A stretch of DNA of 64,000 nucleotides. Source: Salinisphaera sp. Q1T1-3. GTDB lineage: Bacteria > Pseudomonadota > Gammaproteobacteria > Nevskiales > Salinisphaeraceae. Positions 37,906 to 50,198 of this stretch are shown one piece after another; the first letter of the stretch is position 1; each line of letters begins with the position of its first letter. Made by a program: the position numbers and the translations under genes. The stretch lies in assembly GCF_003602005.1 (NCBI RefSeq), contig NZ_QZWD01000016.1, positions 1 to 64,000 of the forward strand, written 5' to 3'. Under the pieces are notes generated by a model. The model saw nothing but the letters and a program-made list of their open reading frames with translations. It was not told where the DNA came from and made no database searches.

Positions 37906-39290
<1,385 letters not shown>

Positions 39291-39292
39291 TC

Positions 39293-40336
39293 GTGAGCCG
39301 GGCCGCTGCCACTCGCCGACGCGACAACCAGAGCCGGGTGCTCGAGGCCCTGCGCCGCGACGGCCCGGCGTCGAGGGCCGAGCTTGCCCGTGCGCTGGGG
39401 CTCAGCAAGGTCACGTTGTCCGCGATCGCTCAGCAGGCGTTGCAGGACGGGTGGCTGGTCGAGCGCAACGCTGCCGGCGGCGGCGTCGGTCGGCGCCCGA
39501 CGCTCCTGGCACTGGCCCCGGCGCTCGGCGTGACCGGTGCGGTGGATATCCATGCCGACAGCCTGTCCGTACGGATCAGCGACCTGCGCGGCGCGGTACT
39601 GGCCGAGGCCACCCGCGATACGCCGACCGCCGAGGCGGCGCTCGTCCATCGGGTGCAGGACGAACTCGCCGCCGCCTGTCAGGCCTGCGGCCACGAGGTC
39701 AGCGCGCTGCGTGCCGTCGTTTTCAGTCTGCCGGCGGCGATCGACGTCGACGGCCGGCTCAATGCGGTGGGTGAGCCAGCGTGCCTGGCCGGCATCGATT
39801 GGGTCACAGCGCTCGAGGCGTGGCTACCAGACGTCGCCGTGGCCCTGATCAACAATAGCAACGCCGCGGCCCTGGCCGAACACGCCGAGGGCGCCGCCGC
39901 AGCCTGGGTGAACTTCGCCTATGTCGGCATCGGTCAATCCGGGCTCGGGGCGGGGCTGGTGCTCGACAACATGCTCTATCGCGGTACGCGGCACGGGGCC
40001 GGCGAGATCGGGGCGCTCGTGCTCGGTGATGATGATTACGCACTCGACGGTCTGGCGAAATCGCCGCGGACCGCCGCGTTCTATCGCCGGCTGGCCCAGC
40101 TGGTTGCGCTGATGGACCACCTGCTTGATCTCGACGGCGTCGTACTGCACGCCGCGGACCTGGACCATGCGACCTGGACCCGCGAGCTGCCCCGGGCGCT
40201 CGCCGACTGCGCCATCCGGCCGGTGACCCTGCGCGTGGCCGCACTCGGTGAGCGCGGCCCGCTCGTCGGCGCGGCCCGGCTGGCCGCGGATACCGCCTGG
40301 CGTCATCTCGAACAGCGCATGGCCGAGGCGGACTGA
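39293..40336 (+). CDS. ROK-family transcriptional regulator of the GlcNAc operon
   Basis: This 347-aa protein has an N-terminal winged HTH (RRRDNQSRVLEALRRDG... and SRAELARALGLSKVTLS) at residues 8-60 and a ROK sugar-binding domain after it. Landmarks of the latter are AVVFSLPAAIDVDGRL near 143, LINNSNAAALAEH near 184 and GTRHGAGEIGAL near 231. It probably senses GlcNAc or GlcNAc-6-P. The start is GTG at 39293; no Shine-Dalgarno is visible because the palindrome abuts it, so translation may be leaderless or the start may be slightly later. It heads the nag operon. Confidence 0.88.
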   Translation: MSRAAATRRRDNQSRVLEALRRDGPASRAELARALGLSKVTLSAIAQQALQDGWLVERNAAGGGVGRRPTLLALAPALGVTGAVDIHADSLSVRISDLRGAVLAEATRDTPTAEAALVHRVQDELAAACQACGHEVSALRAVVFSLPAAIDVDGRLNAVGEPACLAGIDWVTALEAWLPDVAVALINNSNAAALAEHAEGAAAAWVNFAYVGIGQSGLGAGLVLDNMLYRGTRHGAGEIGALVLGDDDYALDGLAKSPRTAAFYRRLAQLVALMDHLLDLDGVVLHAADLDHATWTRELPRALADCAIRPVTLRVAALGERGPLVGAARLAADTAWRHLEQRMAEAD

Positions 40337-40377: not shown

Positions 40378-41760
40378 ATGACGGCAACGACACAGCACAC
40401 GACTTCGCCCACGCGCCTGCCGGCCATGGCCTGGCTGGCGATCGCGATCGCCGCGCTCGGCGGCATGCTCTACGGCTACGATATCGGCATCATCGCGGGC
40501 GCGCTCGTCTTCATGAAGTCCGCACTTTCGCTCGGGCCGGTCGAGATGTCCTGGATCGTGGCGGCGGTGCTCGGCGGCGGTTCGCTGGCCACGCTGATCG
40601 GCGGGCCGGTCGCCGATGCGATCGGGCGCAAGGCCACGCTGCTGATTGCCGGCGTCGTGTTCGCCCTGGGCGTGTTGGTTACCGCCATGGCCGCCGGTTA
40701 CATCGGTGCGCTCGGCGGACGGCTCATCCAGGGGATCGGGGTGGGGCTCGTGACGATCGTCGTGCCCCTGTACATGGTGGAGGTCATGCCGCCCGCGGTC
40801 CGGGGTCGCAGCGTGACGTTGTTTCAACTGTGTCTGACCTTCGGGATTCTGGCCGGTTATCTGGTGGGTTATTTCTTCAACGCCAGCGGCGACTGGCGGG
40901 CGATGTTCGCCACCGCCCTGGTACCGGCCGCGGCGTTCGTGGTGCTGGGTCTGGCGCTGCCGAAATCGCCGCGCTGGCTGATCAAGCGCGGGCGACGCGA
41001 TGAAGCCCGCGCGGCGCTGGCGCGCACGCACAGCCCGGCCGAGGCCGAGACCACGTTCGAAGAACTGGTCGCCCAGACCGATTCAGAAGGGATTTCGGCT
41101 CGCTGGTCGTTGCTGCTGGCCCCGGGCTATCGCAAGGCGTTCTTCCTGGCCCTGGGGATCGGCATCCTCAATCAGCTCACCGGCATCAACACGCTGCTGC
41201 AGTTCAATACCGTCATCCTCGATCAATCGGGTCTCGGCGGAGGTGCCGATGCCGTGCTGGGCAGTGTGTCGGTCGGGCTGACCAATTTCGTGGTGACGAT
41301 CATCGGGCTCGTGCTGATCGACCGTGTCGGGCGGCGTCCGCTGCTTATCGTCGGTACCGCCGGGGCCACCGTGGCGCTGGCCTTCATGGCGTTGGTGCAT
41401 CTGTTCACCGAGGCATCGGCCTTCCAGGGCTATGCAACGCTGTGCGGCCTGATCGGTTTCGTGATCTTCTTCGCCATCGGCCCCGGTATCGTGGTGTGGC
41501 TGGCAATTTCGGAAGTCCTGCCGCTGGCGATCCGGGCCAAGGGCATGGCCGTGGCTCTGTTTGCCAATTCGCTGATGTCGGCGATCCTGGCCGCGGTTTT
41601 CATGAGCATCGTCTCGGTGGCCGGGTATGCCGGGGCCTTCGCCCTGCTTGCCATCGCAGTTTTCGTCTATATGTTGCTGGCCATCTTCCCGTTGCCGGAA
41701 ACCCGTGGCCGCAAGCTGGAAGAGATCGAGACCCATTTTCTGGGAGAAAGCCATGGCTGA
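40378..41760 (+). CDS. MFS sugar porter, probable N-acetylglucosamine/sugar permease
   Basis: This 460-aa transporter of the sugar porter family has 12 predicted membrane helices. Signatures are GGMLYGYDIGIIAGAL in TM1, GPVADAIGRKATLLIAG after TM2, GRLIQGIGVGL, WRAMFATALVP, NQLTGINTLLQFNTVI in TM7, IDRVGRRPLL and the C-terminal PLPETRGRKLEEIE. GGAGGAGG precedes the ATG. Position between the ROK regulator and GlcNAc kinase suggests GlcNAc or a chitin-derived sugar as substrate, with the kinase trapping it. Confidence 0.88.
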   Translation: MTATTQHTTSPTRLPAMAWLAIAIAALGGMLYGYDIGIIAGALVFMKSALSLGPVEMSWIVAAVLGGGSLATLIGGPVADAIGRKATLLIAGVVFALGVLVTAMAAGYIGALGGRLIQGIGVGLVTIVVPLYMVEVMPPAVRGRSVTLFQLCLTFGILAGYLVGYFFNASGDWRAMFATALVPAAAFVVLGLALPKSPRWLIKRGRRDEARAALARTHSPAEAETTFEELVAQTDSEGISARWSLLLAPGYRKAFFLALGIGILNQLTGINTLLQFNTVILDQSGLGGGADAVLGSVSVGLTNFVVTIIGLVLIDRVGRRPLLIVGTAGATVALAFMALVHLFTEASAFQGYATLCGLIGFVIFFAIGPGIVVWLAISEVLPLAIRAKGMAVALFANSLMSAILAAVFMSIVSVAGYAGAFALLAIAVFVYMLLAIFPLPETRGRKLEEIETHFLGESHG

Positions 41761-42646
41761 ACGCCAGCCCCGTGTGCGCATCGGCGTCGATGCCGGCGCC
41801 AGCAAGACACGCGTGGTCGCCCTCGAGGCGACGGGTTCGCTGATCGGCGCGGCCAACGGGCCTGCTGCCACGCTCAATGGTCGGGCCGATACGGCCTGGC
41901 GGACCGTTCAGGAAACGATCCGTGCGATCGCGCCGCTGGAAGCGGTCGATCCGGCGGCCATGCGTGTGGTCGTCGGCATCGCGGGTACGGAAATCGCGAC
42001 GGCCTATCGCGCGTTCTGCGACAGCGCGCCGGCGTGGGGATCGCTGAGCGTGGTCTCGGATGCGCACGTGGCCTGTGCCGGGGCGCATGACGGTCGGGAC
42101 GGGGCGATTGTGGCGGTCGGGACCGGCGTGGTCGGCTTCTGTCGCCATGCCGGGGACAGCACACGCGTCGGTGGCTGGGGGTTCCCGCACGATGATCGGG
42201 GCTCGGGGGCCTGGCTCGGCATGGAGGCCGTCGGCCATGCGCTGGCCGCCGCGGACGGACGCCGCCCGCGCGATACGCTGGCCGAGCAGGTTCTGGCGGC
42301 CTATGACGATGATCCGGGCACGCTCGCTGCCTGGGCCTGTACGGCCGATGCCGGCGCCTTCGCGCGACACGCCCGGCTCGTGGCCGAGCGGGCCGCGGCC
42401 GGTGAGGCGCATGCCACGGCGCTCATTGGCGAGGCCGCTGTCCATGTCTCGGCCGTGGCGCGAGCGTTGATCGGCGAACGGGCCGGTCTGGCGCTCGCGC
42501 TCACCGGCGGGCTGGCCGAGACCGTGGCGCCGTGGCTGGACGCCGATCTGGCATCACGGCTCACCCCGGCCGTCCACGACGGTGCGCATGGCGCCGCACT
42601 GATGGCCGGCGAGCAGACGTATTCGACAACGGAGTCCAATTCATGA
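41753..42646 (+). CDS. N-acetylglucosamine kinase (BadF/BadG ATPase family, NagK-II type)
   Basis: This 297-aa kinase of the BadF/BadG/BcrA/BcrD ASKHA fold has phosphate-1 motif GVDAGASKTRVVAL near residue 11, phosphate-2 VAVGTGVVGFC near 120 and GGWGFPHDDRGSGAWLGMEA near 139. An adenosine-binding LALTGGLAE lies near 247. In gammaproteobacterial nag operons such proteins phosphorylate free GlcNAc. It overlaps the transporter stop by 8 bp and the next gene start by 4 bp. Confidence 0.85.
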   Translation: MAERQPRVRIGVDAGASKTRVVALEATGSLIGAANGPAATLNGRADTAWRTVQETIRAIAPLEAVDPAAMRVVVGIAGTEIATAYRAFCDSAPAWGSLSVVSDAHVACAGAHDGRDGAIVAVGTGVVGFCRHAGDSTRVGGWGFPHDDRGSGAWLGMEAVGHALAAADGRRPRDTLAEQVLAAYDDDPGTLAAWACTADAGAFARHARLVAERAAAGEAHATALIGEAAVHVSAVARALIGERAGLALALTGGLAETVAPWLDADLASRLTPAVHDGAHGAALMAGEQTYSTTESNS

Positions 42647-43692
42647 GCCCGTCCACTCTCATGCGTCAGGAAATGCGCGAGACCCCCGAGCGCCTGACGG
42701 AACAATGGCAGGCCAACCGGAATGTCATCGCCGCGATTGCTGCCGAGCTGGCGATGCGCCCGGCAGCGCCCTGGTGGGTGACGGCCCGCGGCAGCTCATC
42801 CCACGCGGGCGCGTTCTTCGCGGCTGCGGCTGGGCTTGGCGCCGGGCGTGTGGTGGGCGAGATCACGCCGAGTCTGTTCACGGTCTACGAGCGCCAGCCG
42901 CGGCTGGACGGGGCGATGGTCATGGCCATCTCGCAGTCCGGGGCCGGCTCGGATATCAATGCCGTGGTCGAGGCCGCCAACGCCGGCGGCGCGCTCTCGG
43001 TGGCGCTGACCAACGATCCGAGCTCGGCGCTCGGCCGGGCGGCTACGCACACCATCAATCTCGCGATGGGCCCGGAGCGGGCCGTCGCCGCGACCAAGAC
43101 CTATCTCGGTACTCTGGCGGCATCGGCTCGTCTGGTGGCCGCAGCGTCCGATGATCGCCAGCTGGAAGCCGCGCTCGAGCGGCTGCCGGCCACGCTGGCG
43201 GCTCGCCGCGATGCATATGCCGCGCTGTCGGCCGAGACGCTGGCCGATTTCGACCGGGCCGGCTTCGTACTGGGCCGGGGCGTGAGTCTGGGCATCGCCC
43301 GCGAGGTGGCGCTGAAGTTCAAGGAAGTCTGCGTGACGCCGGCCGAGGCATTCTCGGCGGCCGAGTTCATCCATGGTCCGCTCACGCTGGTCGGCCCGGG
43401 GACGCCCATACTCATGATCTGTCTGGATGATGCGACCCGGCCCGGTCTGATCGATACGGCCCATCGACTGGCCGAACTCGGAGCACAGGTCACGCTGATT
43501 GGCCCGGCGCTCGACGACGTGGCCGGCGCCGATAACCTGGCCGTCGTCAGCCGACCTGCCACGGGCAACGTGTTCACCGATGCCATCGCGCTCGCCTTCG
43601 ATTGCTACGGCGCGCTGGAAGCCCGCGCGGTGGCGCTCGGCTATGATCCGGACCAGCCGCCCAACGTGCGCAAGGTCACCAGCACCTACTGA
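42643..43692 (+). CDS. nagB-II: SIS-domain glucosamine-6-phosphate deaminase (NagB-II / AgaS-like)
   Basis: This 349-aa protein consists of two SIS domains as in the isomerase half of GlmS. VTARGSSSHAGAFFAAA near residue 46 and AISQSGAGSDINAV near 99 are the sugar phosphate-binding loops, and ATKTYLGTLAA near 152 corresponds to the TKxY region. LGRGVSLGIAREVALKFKEV near 214 and AAEFIHGPL near 246 complete the second site. It lacks the glutamine amidotransferase domain, so it should deaminate GlcN-6-P to fructose-6-P. The start overlaps the kinase stop (ATGA). Confidence 0.87.
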   Translation: MSPSTLMRQEMRETPERLTEQWQANRNVIAAIAAELAMRPAAPWWVTARGSSSHAGAFFAAAAGLGAGRVVGEITPSLFTVYERQPRLDGAMVMAISQSGAGSDINAVVEAANAGGALSVALTNDPSSALGRAATHTINLAMGPERAVAATKTYLGTLAASARLVAAASDDRQLEAALERLPATLAARRDAYAALSAETLADFDRAGFVLGRGVSLGIAREVALKFKEVCVTPAEAFSAAEFIHGPLTLVGPGTPILMICLDDATRPGLIDTAHRLAELGAQVTLIGPALDDVAGADNLAVVSRPATGNVFTDAIALAFDCYGALEARAVALGYDPDQPPNVRKVTSTY

Positions 43693-44165
43693 TGAACAGG
43701 CACGCCTCAGCCGGTGCCGCGGCGCGCGATCGGCCGGTCATATCGGCGTGGCGCGATCCGTGGTTCTGGGGATTCGTCGCCCTGGGGCCGCTGTATTGGG
43801 TCGGCCTGTGGCTGACCGGCACAGGGCTGGCTGTGTCGATGACGCGCGCGGCGCCGCTGACCTGGCTTACGCTCGGGCTGATCGTGCCGATCGTCGAGGA
43901 GGTATTCTTTCGCGGTCTGCTCCAGCAGGGCCTGCGGTGCATGACACGGCGTCAGATCGGCGTCGGTGTGTCGGCCGCGAATCTGATCACCAGCCTGGTG
44001 TTCTGTACAGCGCATGCGATGACCCGCGGGCCAAGTGTGGCGGCCGGGGTGTTCGTGCCATCGCTGTTGTTCGGCCTTTGCTACGAGCGTCATCGCTCGC
44101 TGGCCAGTCCGGTCGCGTTGCATTGCAGCTATAACAGCGGCTATTTCCTGTTGTTCGGTTGGTAG
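43692..44165 (+). CDS. CPBP-family intramembrane glutamic endopeptidase (MrtJ-like)
   Basis: This 157-aa membrane protein has four or five hydrophobic segments and the CPBP motifs EEVFFRGLLQQ (catalytic Glu pair, residue about 69) and FCTAHAM (His, near 104), with a final HCSYNSGY near 144. The PFWGF/LGPLYWVGLW start, short length and ANLITS...PSLLFG...ER pattern remind me of MrtJ, the protease of JDVT-CTERM sorting systems; this is tentative. It overlaps the SIS gene by 1 bp, so it is co-translated inside the GlcNAc operon, an unusual place. Confidence 0.75.
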   Translation: MNRHASAGAAARDRPVISAWRDPWFWGFVALGPLYWVGLWLTGTGLAVSMTRAAPLTWLTLGLIVPIVEEVFFRGLLQQGLRCMTRRQIGVGVSAANLITSLVFCTAHAMTRGPSVAAGVFVPSLLFGLCYERHRSLASPVALHCSYNSGYFLLFGW

Positions 44166-44306
44166 TTTCCGGCCAGCATGCCGGTCGATCAGAGACACGC
44201 AGATGTGATCGAGACCCGGCGGTCGGTCGGCCACGGTGCGCGCGCCACGGCCGGGTCGAATCGCCTGGCCGGCCGCCGATAGGACAAGACCGATGAGAGC
44301 ATCGCC

Positions 44307-45473
44307 ATGAATACGCAACCCGACCGTTTTCGATTGCACGGTGCCACGGTGCACGACGGCGTATCGACGACACGTACGATCGCCATCGATGGTATTCGGC
44401 TGGCGGCCGAGATCGATCACGGGCGTGATATCGCACTGCCGGAGGACTGGCATGTCATTCCCGGTTTTATCGATGCCCATATCCACGGCGCCATCGGCCA
44501 CGATGTGATGGATGCCGATGCAGCCGGGCTGGCAGCGATCGCGCGCTATCTGCCGGCCGAGGGCACGACGTCGTTTCTGGCCACGACCATGACTGGGCCG
44601 CATGACGCGATCGAGGCTGCTCTGGGCAACGCCGCGGCTTTCGAGGCGCCGGGTGGGGCGGCTGAAATGCTCGGCGTGCATCTCGAAGGGCCATTCGTCG
44701 ATCGTGACAAGGCCGGAGCACAGCCGGTCGCCTGCATCACTGCCCCGGACGTGGCGCTGTTCGACCGCTGGCAGGCTGCCGCCGGCGGGCGTATCCAGGT
44801 TGTGACACTCGCGCCCGAACAGCCCGGCGGCGAAGCCCTGGTCGCGCATCTCGTGGCCCGGGGCGTTCGACCGTCCATCGGCCATTCGAGCTGTTCCGCG
44901 GCGCGGGCCCAGGCTGCGATCGCCGCCGGTGCCAGCCGCGGTACGCATCTGTTCAACGCCATGAACGGCCTGCATCACCGCGAACCCGGGGCGGCCTGTG
45001 CACTGCTTACCGATCCGGCGGCGTCTGCGGAGCTCATCGTGGACGGTCTGCATGTGGCGCCGGCGATGGTGAAGCTGGCCTGGCGGACCGCCGGTGCCGA
45101 GCGGCTGATGACGATCACCGATGCGATGCGGGCCAAAGGCCTCGGTGACGGCGAGACCGAACTCGGCGGTCAGGCCGTGACCGTGGCCCACGGCGAGGCC
45201 CGGCTGGCCGACGGCACGCTCGCTGGCAGCGTGCTGACTTTCGATACGGCCTTTCGCAACCTGCGCGCATTCACCGGTTGCGATATGGCCGAGGCGATCG
45301 CCATGACCAGCACCAACGCGGCCCGTGATCTCGGCGTGGCCGATCGCAAGGGGCGCCTGCTGCCGGGATACGATGCCGACCTGGTGGTGCTGGATAGCGA
45401 AGGCCGGCTGCGCCTCACCGTCGCCCGCGGCGTCGTGGCCTACGATCCGGACGGACTGGCGGCATGCGCTTGA
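44307..45473 (+). CDS. nagA: N-acetylglucosamine-6-phosphate deacetylase
   Basis: This 388-aa amidohydrolase removes acetate from GlcNAc-6-P, giving GlcN-6-P for NagB-II. Metal and catalytic motifs: PGFIDAHIHGAIGHDVMDA near residue 52, HLEGPFVDRDKAGAQP near 125, GHSSCSAARAQ near 191, GTHLFNAMNGLHHREPG near 212 and catalytic Asp in ITDAMRAKG near 270. It follows the protease gene after 141 bp without a clear promoter and ends the nag operon. Confidence 0.95.
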   Translation: MNTQPDRFRLHGATVHDGVSTTRTIAIDGIRLAAEIDHGRDIALPEDWHVIPGFIDAHIHGAIGHDVMDADAAGLAAIARYLPAEGTTSFLATTMTGPHDAIEAALGNAAAFEAPGGAAEMLGVHLEGPFVDRDKAGAQPVACITAPDVALFDRWQAAAGGRIQVVTLAPEQPGGEALVAHLVARGVRPSIGHSSCSAARAQAAIAAGASRGTHLFNAMNGLHHREPGAACALLTDPAASAELIVDGLHVAPAMVKLAWRTAGAERLMTITDAMRAKGLGDGETELGGQAVTVAHGEARLADGTLAGSVLTFDTAFRNLRAFTGCDMAEAIAMTSTNAARDLGVADRKGRLLPGYDADLVVLDSEGRLRLTVARGVVAYDPDGLAACA

Positions 45474-46171: not shown

Positions 46172-46350
46172 GGCGTGTCGTCACGAGATAGGCGGCCGCA
46201 TTGTCCGGCGAGTGGTCCCGGGCAGGGGCGCAGGCCGTCGTGCGTAGCGCCACTGGCCGGAATAACCCGGCGGGCCGGCGATCAGCCGGCGTTATTGCTC
46301 GTTCACGTGGCGCGTGCCACGCCGCGCTCGCGTTGTTGGATGGTCAGGCG
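46171..46350 (+). repeat. Family B interspersed repeat, copy B1 (approximate right end)
   Basis: It starts GGGCGTGTCGTCACGAGATA directly at the TAG stop of the LysE gene. It shares this terminus and an internal GCGTTAT-GCTCG-T-ACGTGGC block with the sequence from 60190. The terminus is similar in style to family A (GGGC-TGT) but the interior is different. The right end is not sharp; similarity fades near 46350. Confidence 0.55.
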
Positions 46351-46351
46351 G

Positions 46352-46387
46352 GGCGGACTCCGCCCGGCAGCCAGGACGGAGTCCGCC
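46352..46387. promoter_or_regulatory. 11-bp inverted repeat upstream of eutB, possible activator site
   Basis: GGCGGACTCCG (46352-46362) is perfectly inverted as CGGAGTCCGCC (46377-46387) around 14 bp. It lies about 30 bp upstream of a sigma54-like box. It could be the binding site of an enhancer-binding protein such as EatR, which controls eat-eutBC in Pseudomonas, or a transcription terminator of the LysE gene. There is no T-run after it, which disfavours the latter. Confidence 0.45.
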
Positions 46388-46413
46388 GGGCTGGGTTGAG
46401 TCATCGTCGCGAT

Positions 46414-46430
46414 ACGGCAGGCATGTTGCT
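46414..46430 (+). promoter_or_regulatory. Candidate sigma54 promoter of eutB-eutC-eat
   Basis: ACGGCAGGCATGTTGCT has GG at 46416-46417 and GC at 46428-46429 with exactly 10 bp between, the -24/-12 arrangement. The TTGCT half is a perfect -12 element; the -24 half (ACGGCAGG versus YTGGCACG) is weaker. Transcription would start near 46441, about 60 bp before the eutB ATG. In Pseudomonas the eat-eutBC operon is driven by a sigma54 activator, which makes the match more credible. That activator gene is not in the window. Confidence 0.45.
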
Positions 46431-46502
46431 TGCATCGAACGTCCAATGGCATTGCGCCCCGGCCGGCGCAGACTGGACGAGACATGCTTGAGGAGAGCCG
46501 CC

Positions 46503-47915
46503 ATGGCCGCACCCTATCGATATACCATCGGCGCGCGGACTTATCGTTTCGATGATCTGGCCGAGGTCATGGCCAAGGCCAACCATGCCCGCTCGGGCGA
46601 TCGGCTAGCCGGTGTCATCGCCGAGACGGCGGAAGAGCGGGTGGTGGCCCAGATGGTACTGGCCGATCTGCCGCTCACGGTCTTTCTAGAGGATCTGTTG
46701 ATTCCCTACGAGGACGACGAGATCACGCGTCTGATCGTCGATACCCACGATGCCGAGGCGTTCGCGCCGATTCGTCATTTCACGGTCGGCGATTTCCGCA
46801 ACTGGCTGCTGGCCGATGACACATCGGCCGAGGTGATCGCGGCCGTGCGACCCGGCATCACGCCGGAGATGGCGGCGGCCGTGGCCAAGATCATGCGCAA
46901 TCAGGATCTGATCCTCGTCGCGAAGAAATGTCGGGTGGTCACCGCGTTTCGCAACACGATCGGTCAGGCCGGGCATCTGTCGACCCGGCTGCAGCCCAAT
47001 CATCCGACCGACGATGCGACCGGCATCGCCGCCAGCATTCTCGACGGTCTGCTTTATGGCAACGGGGATGCGGTGATCGGCATCAACCCGGCCACCGACA
47101 ACGTGGCCCAGTCGGTGCGGTTGATGAAGATGCTCGACGAGATCATCGCCCGCTACGAGATTCCGACCCAGTCCTGCGTGCTAACCCATGTGACGAATAC
47201 GCTGGAGGCCATCGAGGCCGGGGCGCCCGTGGATCTGGTGTTCCAGTCGATCGGCGGCACCGAGGCGACAAACAGCAGCTTCGGTTTCGGGCTGGCCGAT
47301 CTGGCCGAAGCCCGCGAGGCGGCCCTTGCCCTGAAACGGGGCACGGTCGGCGACAACGTCATGTATTTCGAGACCGGGCAGGGCAGCAGTCTGTCCGCCG
47401 ATGCCCATCACGGGTTGGACCAGCAGACCTGCGAGGCACGGGCCTATGGGGTCGCGCGTCATTTCAAGCCGCTTCTGACCAACACGGTGGTCGGCTTCAT
47501 CGGTCCGGAATATCTCTACGACGGGAAGGAGATCATCCGCGCCGGGCTGGAGGACCATTTCTGCGGCAAGCTGCTCGGGGTGCCGATGGGCGTGGACGTC
47601 TGCTACACCAACCATGCCGAGGCCGACCAGAACGACATGGACACGCTGTTGACGCTGCTCGGCGTGGCGGGCGTGAACTTCGTCATGGGCATTCCCGGCT
47701 CGGACGACATCATGCTCAACTACCAGACGACATCCTTCCACGACGCCCTTTATGCGCGCCGGGCACTGGACCTGCGCCCCGCTCCCGAGTTCGATGCGTG
47801 GCTGACCAGGATGGGCATCTTTGCCGAAGGCGATCAGTATCGGCTCGCCGAGACGTTGCCCGAGTCTTTTGCCCACTCGCTCTCGCGCCTGCCGGAGGGC
47901 GCCGATCATGAGTGA
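46503..47915 (+). CDS. eutB: Ethanolamine ammonia-lyase, large (catalytic) subunit
   Basis: This 470-aa TIM-barrel subunit is adenosylcobalamin dependent and cleaves ethanolamine to acetaldehyde and ammonia with EutC. Family segments are AFRNTIGQAGHLSTRLQPNH near residue 150, IGINPATDNVAQSVRLMKML near 198, FETGQGSSLSADAHHG near 290 and MGVDVCYTNHAEADQNDMD near 362. GAGGAG precedes the ATG. No microcompartment genes and no EutA reactivase are nearby, so this is the minimal Pseudomonas-type module. Confidence 0.96.
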   Translation: MAAPYRYTIGARTYRFDDLAEVMAKANHARSGDRLAGVIAETAEERVVAQMVLADLPLTVFLEDLLIPYEDDEITRLIVDTHDAEAFAPIRHFTVGDFRNWLLADDTSAEVIAAVRPGITPEMAAAVAKIMRNQDLILVAKKCRVVTAFRNTIGQAGHLSTRLQPNHPTDDATGIAASILDGLLYGNGDAVIGINPATDNVAQSVRLMKMLDEIIARYEIPTQSCVLTHVTNTLEAIEAGAPVDLVFQSIGGTEATNSSFGFGLADLAEAREAALALKRGTVGDNVMYFETGQGSSLSADAHHGLDQQTCEARAYGVARHFKPLLTNTVVGFIGPEYLYDGKEIIRAGLEDHFCGKLLGVPMGVDVCYTNHAEADQNDMDTLLTLLGVAGVNFVMGIPGSDDIMLNYQTTSFHDALYARRALDLRPAPEFDAWLTRMGIFAEGDQYRLAETLPESFAHSLSRLPEGADHE

Positions 47916-48774
47916 TGATGAAGCCGGCCCGGAACGTGATCACCTACCGGCCGAACAGGTCGAGTCGGGCGTCGTCGACAACCCGTGGCGCAAGCTGCGA
48001 GCCTTCACCGATGCCCGCATCGGCCTCGGGCGGGCCGGCATCAGCCTGCCGACCCATCGCATGCTGGAATTCCAGCTCGCCCATGCCCAGGCCCGCGATG
48101 CCGTGCATCTGCCACTGGATGTCGATGCCCTGTGTGAATCGCTGGATGAGCCGCCGTCACCGTTGCCGAACCAGGCGCCGATCCGGCTGCACAGCCGGGC
48201 CGATGATCGCATCACCTATCTGCAGCGGCCGGATCTCGGGCGTCGTCTGAACGACGATTCGGCCGCTACGCTCGCCGAGGCCGCGGCGGACGATGGCTAT
48301 GACCTGGCGCTGGTCATCGTCGACGGGCTGTCGTCGTTCGGCGTGGCCAGCCATGCCGCGCCCTTCATCGAAAAACTGGCCAGCGAGCTGGCCGATGACG
48401 CCGATTTCGATTGGTCGCTGGCGCCGTTGACGGTGATCGAGCAAGGGCGCGTGGCCATCGGGGACGACGTCGGCGAGCGGCTCGCCGCCCGCTGTGTCGT
48501 GGTGCTGGTCGGCGAGCGCCCGGGGCTGTCCTCGCCGGACAGCCTGGGCCTTTATCTGACCTGGAATCCGCACGTCGGGGTCACCGATGCCGATCGCAAC
48601 TGTATCTCCAACGTCCGTCCGGCCGGACTCGCCCTGGACGAAGCGGCACAACGTTTGCTTTATCTGCTGAAGGAAGCCCGCCGCGGCGAGCAATCCGGCG
48701 TGGCGCTCAAGGATCGCAGCGGCGGTGAGGCGATCGAGAACGAGACCGAGCAGAAGAATTTTCTGACCGGGTAA
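47908..48774 (+). CDS. eutC: Ethanolamine ammonia-lyase, small subunit
   Basis: This 288-aa subunit completes the cobalamin site. Family motifs are WRKLRAFTDARIGLGRAGIS near residue 27, HRMLEFQLAHAQARDAVH near 50, DLALVIVDGLSSFGVASHA near 132, VVLVGERPGLSSPDSLGLYL near 204 and CISNVRPAGLALDEAA near 240. The start at 47908 overlaps the end of eutB by 8 bp, so subunits are made in step. The N-terminal 25 residues are acidic and variable. Confidence 0.95.
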   Translation: MSDDEAGPERDHLPAEQVESGVVDNPWRKLRAFTDARIGLGRAGISLPTHRMLEFQLAHAQARDAVHLPLDVDALCESLDEPPSPLPNQAPIRLHSRADDRITYLQRPDLGRRLNDDSAATLAEAAADDGYDLALVIVDGLSSFGVASHAAPFIEKLASELADDADFDWSLAPLTVIEQGRVAIGDDVGERLAARCVVVLVGERPGLSSPDSLGLYLTWNPHVGVTDADRNCISNVRPAGLALDEAAQRLLYLLKEARRGEQSGVALKDRSGGEAIENETEQKNFLTG

Positions 48775-48797
48775 ATCATAACGGGTGGGATAGGGCG

Positions 48798-50198
48798 ATG
48801 AGCACACACACGGTAGACGACGACTATCTGGCCAAACGCCAGCTCCAACGCGGTACGGCGGGCTGGGTTCTGCTGGCCGGGCTCGGCGTGGCCGGCGTCA
48901 TTTCGGGCGATTTCGCGGGCTGGAACTTCGGCATCGCCCAGGCCGGTTGGGGTGGTTTCGTGATCGCCGCGGTGCTGATGGGCCTGATGTATTTCTCGCT
49001 CGTCCTGTCACTGGCCGAAATGAGCGCGGCCATTCCGGCGGCCGGCGGCGGCTACAGCTTCGCCCGCCAGGCCATGGGGCCGGCCGGCGGTTACTTCACC
49101 GGCCTGGCGGTGCTCATCGAATACGCGCTGGCGCCCGCAGCCATCGTGATCTTTATCGGCTCGGCGGTGTCCGAGCTGATCGGCATCGACGGGCCGATCG
49201 TCTATGCGGTCTTTTATGCCGTGTTCATCGGCATCCATCTGGCCGGTGTGGGCGAAGCGCTCAAGGTGATGCTGGCGATCAGCGCCTTGGCCGTATTCGC
49301 CATCCTGCTGACCGCGGTCGCCCTGATCGGCGATTTCGATGCATCGAATCTCTTCGATATTGCCCCCACCGATGCAGCAGGGGCCTCGACCTTCCTGCCG
49401 TTCGGCTGGTATGGCGTCTGGGCAGCCTTGCCGTTCGGCATGTGGTTGTTTCTGGCCGTTGAAGGTGTGCCGCTGGCCGCCGAGGAAGCCAAGAACCCGG
49501 CACGTGACGTGCCGCGCGGCATCATCGCGGCCATGCTGTTCCTGATCTTCACCGCCACCCTCGTGACTGTACTGCTGGCCGGGGCCGCCGGCGCCCAGGC
49601 TATCGGCAATTCCGGTGTGCCGTTGGTCACTGCCTTGCGGGATACCAACAGCGCCGGCATCGGCACGCTGGTCAACGTGTTGGCCCTGGCCGGACTCGTG
49701 GCCTCGTTCTTCTCCATCATCTATGGCTATAGCCGACTGGTGTTCGCTCTCTCCCGGGCCGGCTATCTGCCGAGCTTCCTGTCGCTGACCAGCTCCCGCA
49801 AAGCCCCGACCTGGGCCCTCGTCGTGCCCGGGGTGCTGGGTTTTCTTGCCTCGCTGTCCGGCGCGGGCGATCGCATGCTGGCGATGGCCGTGGTGGGCGC
49901 GACGCTGTCCTACGCATTGATGGCGTTCAGTCATATCCGACTGCGGTTGCGCCAGCCGAACCTGAACCGGCCCTATCGTACACCCGGCGGGATGGTGACA
50001 TCGGTCATCGCACTCGTGCTGGCGCTCGTGGCGCTGACCGGTGTGTTCGCCTTCGACCCTAGGGCCTTCGGTTACACGATCATTCTGTTCGCGATCGGCG
50101 GTGCTTGGTATGTCTTCTACAGTCGGCATCATCTCGTCGCGAAATCGGCCGAGGAGGAGTTCGCGCTGCTGGCCCGGGCCGAGGAATCGCTGGACTGA
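48798..50198 (+). CDS. eat: Ethanolamine permease (APC family, eat type)
   Basis: This 466-aa transporter has 12 predicted membrane helices of the amino acid-polyamine-organocation superfamily. It has the eat-like start LLAGLGVAGVISGDFAGWNFG near residue 27, EMSAAIPAAGGGYSFARQAMGP near 74, and FLAVEGVPLAAEEAKNPARDVPRG near 217. It is the third gene of eutB-eutC-eat, 23 bp after eutC, and imports the substrate of the lyase. A truncated family A repeat follows 60 bp after the stop. Confidence 0.92.
   Translation: MSTHTVDDDYLAKRQLQRGTAGWVLLAGLGVAGVISGDFAGWNFGIAQAGWGGFVIAAVLMGLMYFSLVLSLAEMSAAIPAAGGGYSFARQAMGPAGGYFTGLAVLIEYALAPAAIVIFIGSAVSELIGIDGPIVYAVFYAVFIGIHLAGVGEALKVMLAISALAVFAILLTAVALIGDFDASNLFDIAPTDAAGASTFLPFGWYGVWAALPFGMWLFLAVEGVPLAAEEAKNPARDVPRGIIAAMLFLIFTATLVTVLLAGAAGAQAIGNSGVPLVTALRDTNSAGIGTLVNVLALAGLVASFFSIIYGYSRLVFALSRAGYLPSFLSLTSSRKAPTWALVVPGVLGFLASLSGAGDRMLAMAVVGATLSYALMAFSHIRLRLRQPNLNRPYRTPGGMVTSVIALVLALVALTGVFAFDPRAFGYTIILFAIGGAWYVFYSRHHLVAKSAEEEFALLARAEESLD

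Follow-up and report, generated by a model that had tools for sequence, protein, structure and literature searches.

An MrtJ-type intramembrane protease gene within a nag operon of Salinisphaera sp. Q1T1-3, unlinked from its predicted JDVT-CTERM target

The nag operon and its mrtJ gene

The window (the whole stretch of 64,000 nucleotides that was analyzed, positions 1 to 64,000 of contig NZ_QZWD01000016.1 of Salinisphaera sp. Q1T1-3) carries a nag operon in which a gene for an intramembrane protease, mrtJ, lies between nagB-II and nagA. The operon runs in the order ROK regulator, MFS porter, NagK-like kinase, NagB-II-like deaminase, mrtJ and NagA, and comprises the following features:

39246..39290, no strand: inverted repeat whose 19-bp arms match exactly across a 7-bp spacer, immediately ahead of the ROK regulator gene; likely the operator of the operon
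39293..40336, + strand: ROK-family (NagC/Mlc-like) regulator, first gene of the operon (PF00480 over cut-off; NF047937 below cut-off)
40378..41760, + strand: MFS sugar porter (TIGR00879 over cut-off)
41747..42646, + strand: GlcNAc kinase-like protein of the BadF/BcrA ATPase family (NF046058, 182 bits, below the equivalog cut-off of 370; PF01869)
42646..43692, + strand: nagB-II, glucosamine-6-phosphate deaminase-like protein with SIS domain (NF046059, 241 bits, below the equivalog cut-off of 430; PF01380)
43692..44165, + strand: mrtJ, JDVT-CTERM system glutamic-type intramembrane protease of the CPBP family (NF033192, PF02517, invariant motifs and structure model)
44166..44306, + strand: mrtJ-nagA spacer, missing in five sister operons and single copy in the genome except for short weak matches
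44307..45473, + strand: nagA, N-acetylglucosamine-6-phosphate deacetylase (TIGR00221, 315.7 against an equivalog cut-off of 225.65)

Although they score under their equivalog cut-offs, the predicted NagB-II and NagK products are clear relatives of their families. The mrtJ ORF encodes 157 amino acids, with its ATG at 43692 and its stop codon ending at 44165. The TGA of nagB-II (43690–43692) and the ATG of mrtJ (43692–43694) have one base in common (TGATG), and nagA starts at 44307 following a gap of 141 bp. Judged from this position and the stop-start overlap, mrtJ is very likely expressed together with the nag genes, probably by riding along on their expression. The numbers of promoters and terminators predicted by scans were close to those from shuffled sequences (1 vs 0.7 and 3 vs 2.9, respectively), none of them within the mrtJ-nagA spacer.

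The spacer itself was found in a single copy when compared with the genome, besides 17 short weak matches (the best having an E value of 0.006 over 31 bases), and its predicted RNA fold was not unusual (z of −1.18). A mobile insertion of mrtJ was thus rejected, as the spacer is single copy and its fold unremarkable.

It should also be noted that the regulator gene of the operon appears to have been exchanged within the genus, with the ROK gene and the exact inverted repeat found here, and a GntR-like gene (named by eye) in the same place in S. hydrothermalis C41B8 (G005) and in genome G007 (L227 6010–6753; L228 6093–6839). The nag operon of G009 has no room for a regulator gene, and G001 and S. 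japonica YTM-1 (G013) have other neighbors at that place. Downstream of the operon, ORFs at positions 46314–50198 of the window resemble by eye the ethanolamine ammonia-lyase genes for EutB and EutC and an amino acid permease.

The product of mrtJ scored 95.3 bits against the NCBIfam equivalog model NF033192 (CPBP_JDVT_MrtJ; cut-off 75), which places it within the MrtJ family, and 69.2 against PF02517 (cut-off 22.4; Pfam). It is the sole PF02517 (Rce1-like) match of the genome at an E value of 0.001, and a profile search of the genome found no second MrtJ match. An alignment of 20 rows including the Q1T1-3 protein showed 13 invariant positions (E69, E70, F73, R74, L81, N97, F104, H108, L125, G128, R133, H144 and N148), the identity of this MrtJ to the 19 others being 29–41%. 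Among these positions are the CPBP catalytic motifs EExxxR, H and HxxxN (E69, E70, R74, H108, H144 and N148). These are the motifs named for MrtX of Myxococcus xanthus in PMC11980579; their mapping onto the residues of MrtJ was made in the present analysis.

The predicted structure of MrtJ had a mean pLDDT of 86.8. Among 220 chains proposed by Foldseek, VIA-align placed the archaeal Rce1 4cad on top with a Z score of 9.0 over 133 residues, a value that helical bundles can reach by chance, the next row having 5.8. Foldseek alone gave no match for the model at an E value of 0.001, and sequence searches of the PDB gave no matches for the MrtJ family or for the metalloprotease family described below. 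With PF02517 over its cut-off and an Rce1-like chain as the best VIA-align row, the protein belongs to the CPBP/Rce1 group, the fold being a predicted one.

The JDVT-CTERM protein predicted as MrtJ target

A single protein of the genome exceeded the cut-off of the JDVT-CTERM tail profile (NF033191, 47 bits vs 27 in the genome search). Its gene lies on contig C3 of the assembly (G000) and mrtJ on contig C7:

G000:C3 86895–88181, − strand: JDVT-CTERM metzincin-like protease of 429 amino acids, identified by its NF033191 tail match

The tail comprises residues 389–422 of 429 (G000:C3 86916–87017, − strand), scoring 41.7 bits in the scan of the protein, and shows the layout of a JDVT substrate, namely a C-terminal tail with a Cys, a helix and an Arg cluster. 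It is intact, with Cys394 present, and the N-terminus looks by eye like a Sec signal peptide. GspD was also found over its cut-off in the genome.

An alignment of this metalloprotease with its relatives (13 rows) showed H190, E191 and H194 (HExxH), H301, W302, M312 and the tail Cys394 to be invariant. The next invariant His thus lies approximately 107 residues past the HExxH motif; in matrixins the next His is not found at such a distance. Pfam assigned the C3 protease to no family, and among the 13 members scanned there was one PEP-CTERM match at an E value of 0.64. The metalloprotease model NF038122 matched across the catalytic region (E value of 1e-12), but with 48.7 bits against a cut-off of 80 the protein is related to this family and is not a member by that rule. 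The structure model was weak from residue 199 except for a few stretches (mean pLDDT 53.9; below 50 over residues 199–331). The best Foldseek hit of this model, poor past residue 199, was a matrix metalloproteinase, which is not significant at an E value of 0.47. VIA-align of the same poor model gave a best Z score of 9.0, with all of the best 50 rows of 307 chains being metzincins, among them matrixins (Z of approximately 9) and the leishmanolysin 1lml (Z of 8.9 over 176 residues). The C3 protease is thus like leishmanolysin (M8) and the matrixins in the VIA-align rows, the HExxH motif, the distant invariant His301 and Met312, but differs from the matrixins in the spacing from HExxH to the next His. 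Taken together, sequence and model suggest that the protein is most likely a surface-bound metzincin, its family assignment being tentative.

A search of the genome with the JDVT profile at E values up to 10 gave seven matches, the runner-up reaching 13.8 bits against the cut-off of 27. All six matches other than the C3 protease were below threshold, and further JDVT-like tails were rejected on inspection: four of these matches are internal, the runner-up lies at the end of a membrane protein with several helices and without a Gly-Gly-Cys motif, and the remaining one (L007) ends 15 residues short of the C-terminus without a Cys motif.

It was also observed that G013 and G009 each encode an additional member of this metalloprotease family, one that ends without a JDVT tail (L232 2428–4038, + strand; L233 4188–5705, − strand). 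Because of these members, the JDVT sorting tail looks like an add-on to the metalloprotease family.

The original prediction had put forward the one-base overlap with nagB-II and the place ahead of nagA, a protease of MrtJ type and the presence of JDVT-CTERM proteins in the genome, all of which agree with the findings above, the one such protein being on another contig. Its suggestion that these proteins might be secreted chitin-related enzymes was not borne out. The one JDVT protein that exceeds the cut-off resembles a metzincin, and a search for chitinases of family GH18 gave none in the genome at an E value of 0.001, while it was positive in 6 of 14 control genomes. Within the scope of this GH18 search, a link to chitin is not supported.

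Pairing in the genus and displacement from the ancestral place

Fourteen Salinisphaera genomes were compared, including S. hydrothermalis C41B8, S. shabanensis E1L3A (G004) and S. japonica YTM-1. Thirteen of them encode an MrtJ over its cut-off, 13 a JDVT protein and 13 a member of the metalloprotease family, the genome without being G007 in every case. The mrtJ gene lies directly 3′ of the JDVT metalloprotease gene in 12 of the 13 mrtJ-bearing genomes, and Q1T1-3, with the two genes on separate contigs, is the exception. Adjacency is usual rather than universal, as the mrtJ of G015, a member of another genus, likewise has no JDVT match on its contig; there it occupies the ancestral place next to ygfB discussed below, its likely targets being encoded on different contigs.

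The metalloprotease locus is syntenic between Q1T1-3 and its relatives, with the same two upstream genes, the protease, ygfB, a pepP-like gene and two ubiH-like genes (names assigned by eye). In the relatives mrtJ lies between the protease gene and ygfB, with ygfB following mrtJ on 12 of 13 contigs, which cover all 12 genomes; the thirteenth holds the second copy in G010. Q1T1-3 has the protease gene followed by ygfB across a gap of 159 bp with no mrtJ between them. A relic of a native mrtJ in this gap was looked for and rejected, the matches beyond the ygfB start being short and at chance level. Since mrtJ also sits between the same upstream gene and ygfB in G015 and in G018, a member of another family, the protease-ygfB interval is most likely the ancestral place of mrtJ.

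A different picture was obtained for the nag operon. Close relatives of nagB-II were found in 6 of the 14 Salinisphaera genomes, Q1T1-3 included, giving five sister nag operons. All five have nagB-II overlapping nagA directly by TGATG and none contains mrtJ, so that mrtJ entered exactly at that junction in the Q1T1-3 lineage. The nag placement is seen in this lineage alone, in one genome. No nag genes were found at any of 79 mrtJ-like loci from named genomes (44 of at least 15 kb, the rest shorter contigs), although the same search was positive in the window and at all five sister loci; 25 of the 79 carried a JDVT-like tail. In the library searched, no paper on MrtJ within a nag operon was listed. 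The original prediction had proposed a check for conservation of the gene in related nag operons, which was not found in the five examined, and had named as joint grounds against itself the lack of such conservation and the absence of any sorting-signal protein; the former is the case, while the latter is contradicted by the JDVT protein on C3.

The restriction to one genome, together with the draft state of the assembly (59 contigs), might be taken to indicate an assembly error or a dead gene in transit. This is highly improbable, since the reading frame is uninterrupted and retains every catalytic residue, the stop-start overlap is exact, the nag flanks of mrtJ sit on a single 89-kb contig and the genome has no other MrtJ match.

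Two origins may be considered for the nag-borne gene: acquisition from another proteobacterial lineage with displacement of the native gene (xenologous displacement), or a move of the native gene followed by fast divergence. Trees of 56 and 42 rows placed mrtJ outside the 13 Salinisphaera pair genes and near sequences of G018, the Acidiferrobacterales and the Zetaproteobacteria. Two starred branches (97/96, 97/95) of the 42-row tree separate it from all 13 Salinisphaera genes, but the matching branches of the 56-row tree are unstarred (84/35, 91/84, 94/93, 94/86). Forcing mrtJ into the nine-member Salinisphaera clade cost 22.4 log-likelihood units, with a p-AU of 0.0455 that is borderline for a clade chosen after the first tree had been seen. 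The three best tblastn matches among named genomes were Granulosicoccaceae MAGs, which would also suit acquisition. However, the end branch of mrtJ is the longest of the 42-row tree (1.82), making its placement unsure, and it belongs to none of the starred sets that comprise up to half of that tree's rows. G015 and G018, which have mrtJ at the ancestral place, fall on the same side of the tree as the nag-borne gene, and that side is therefore not foreign as such. The G+C content of mrtJ (0.652) is also close to that of the window (0.645). On these sequence comparisons the balance leans slightly toward acquisition over a diverged native copy, and both origins fit the explanation favored below.

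The core identity of MrtJ falls below the trend of 55 other pairs in all 11 within-genus comparisons, by 0.8 to 2.7 sd, whereas the comparison with G015, from another genus, gave a value 0.6 sd above the trend. This MrtJ has diverged more than its substrate, which could mean an altered specificity. Such excess divergence would be expected if MrtJ had switched to another substrate, leaving the C3 metalloprotease unprocessed or cut by another enzyme. That reading is improbable, as the catalytic positions of MrtJ are intact, no second JDVT-like tail exceeds the cut-off, and the tail of the C3 protease retains Cys394.

An order-wide search found MrtJ over cut-off in 19 of 85 genomes. Relatives outside the genus carry several JDVT proteins: at an E value of 0.01, nine JDVT matches (seven over cut-off) were found in G018 and four (three over cut-off) in G015 (L079, L083, L086–L088 and L093–L095). 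In two Nevskiaceae-type genomes mrtJ precedes the gene of a JDVT protein of approximately 924 amino acids (L078 5810–8581, − strand; L081 6097–8868, − strand), that of L078 combining Ig repeats of HYDIN/ASH type with a weak match to cytochrome c. Within the genus, genome G010 (81% completeness, 3% contamination) showed three mrtJ matches, one of them a fragment at a contig end, and two JDVT proteins (L070–L072); these extra copies represent either duplication or mixed strains.

A separated enzyme-target pair and the amino-sugar question

The observations on which an explanation can rest are the membership of enzyme and tail in their families, their one-to-one pairing in the genus, their separation in Q1T1-3, the absence of mrtJ from its old place and its insertion relative to five sister operons. 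They are probably best explained by a functional MrtJ that processes a single substrate in trans, namely the metzincin-like JDVT-CTERM protease whose gene lies on C3. In this lineage mrtJ is missing from the protease-ygfB place, and the only mrtJ of the genome lies at the nagB-II/nagA junction, where it has taken over the TGATG overlap. MrtJ would be expected to cleave the tail of the C3 protease, with the nag setting providing expression and not a sugar-related role. The enzyme is of a known type, and its unusual location is probably incidental.

The course of processing can be proposed by analogy with the myxosortase MrtX, also a CPBP intramembrane protease, whose cleavage of a comparable Cys-containing tail has been demonstrated in both M. 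xanthus and E. coli (PMC11980579). Its MYXO-CTERM substrates have the same invariant Cys, helix and Arg cluster in the tail, and export by a type II secretion system is proposed for them (PMC11980579). The C3 metalloprotease would accordingly be exported by Sec, anchored in the inner membrane by its C-terminal helix and arginine tail, lipidated at the conserved Cys394, freed of the helix by MrtJ, and placed on the surface by the type II secretion system. For the enzyme that lipidates the Cys, PMC11980579 gives Lgt as the leading candidate. The two systems differ in that M. xanthus has 35 MYXO-CTERM proteins (PMC11980579) and Q1T1-3 one target, and in that the MrtX profile has 238 positions against the 157 amino acids of this MrtJ. 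A closer parallel is the MrtJ/JDVT-CTERM system itself (NF033192, NF033191), which PMC11980579 describes as a two-gene neighborhood with one JDVT-CTERM protein, occurring sporadically in beta- and gammaproteobacteria. Q1T1-3 agrees with it in having enzyme and tail over the curated cut-offs, one of each in the genome, but departs from the described arrangement in that the two are unlinked and the enzyme gene is within a nag operon.

It could be argued that the nag placement was selected, with surface display of the metalloprotease tied to the availability of amino sugar, for instance sugar released from glycoproteins or cell walls. Sugar-dependent expression of mrtJ is plausible, given its stop-start overlap with nagB-II and its position behind a ROK regulator gene that is preceded by an exact inverted repeat. 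The 25-base core of the palindrome, however, had only one genomic site with up to three mismatches allowed, that of the nag operon itself (control 0), and in this genome-wide search none was found upstream of the metalloprotease gene. The placement is also found in none of the five sister nag operons, no GH18 chitinase was detected at the threshold given above, and the substrate has no known link to amino sugars. Selection for such dependence is accordingly doubtful. Its more specific form, a sugar-gated C-terminal sorting of the metzincin-like protease reached through xenologous displacement of the native enzyme, must be regarded as unlikely; if true, a sorting enzyme would have been separated from the only substrate it has and brought under the control of a sugar operon, making surface display conditional on N-acetylglucosamine. 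Beyond its place in the operon, nothing was found that ties MrtJ to amino-sugar use, and the most economical view is that mrtJ could be served by any active operon.

Q1T1-3 constitutes a natural experiment: a single enzyme and a single target lie apart, while sister species keep the pair together and one species is without both. The split pair offers a clean way to test the specificity of the enzyme for its tail, and also metabolic control of sorting. For the genus as a whole, the 13 genomes point to one conserved client of MrtJ, a metzincin-like surface protease.
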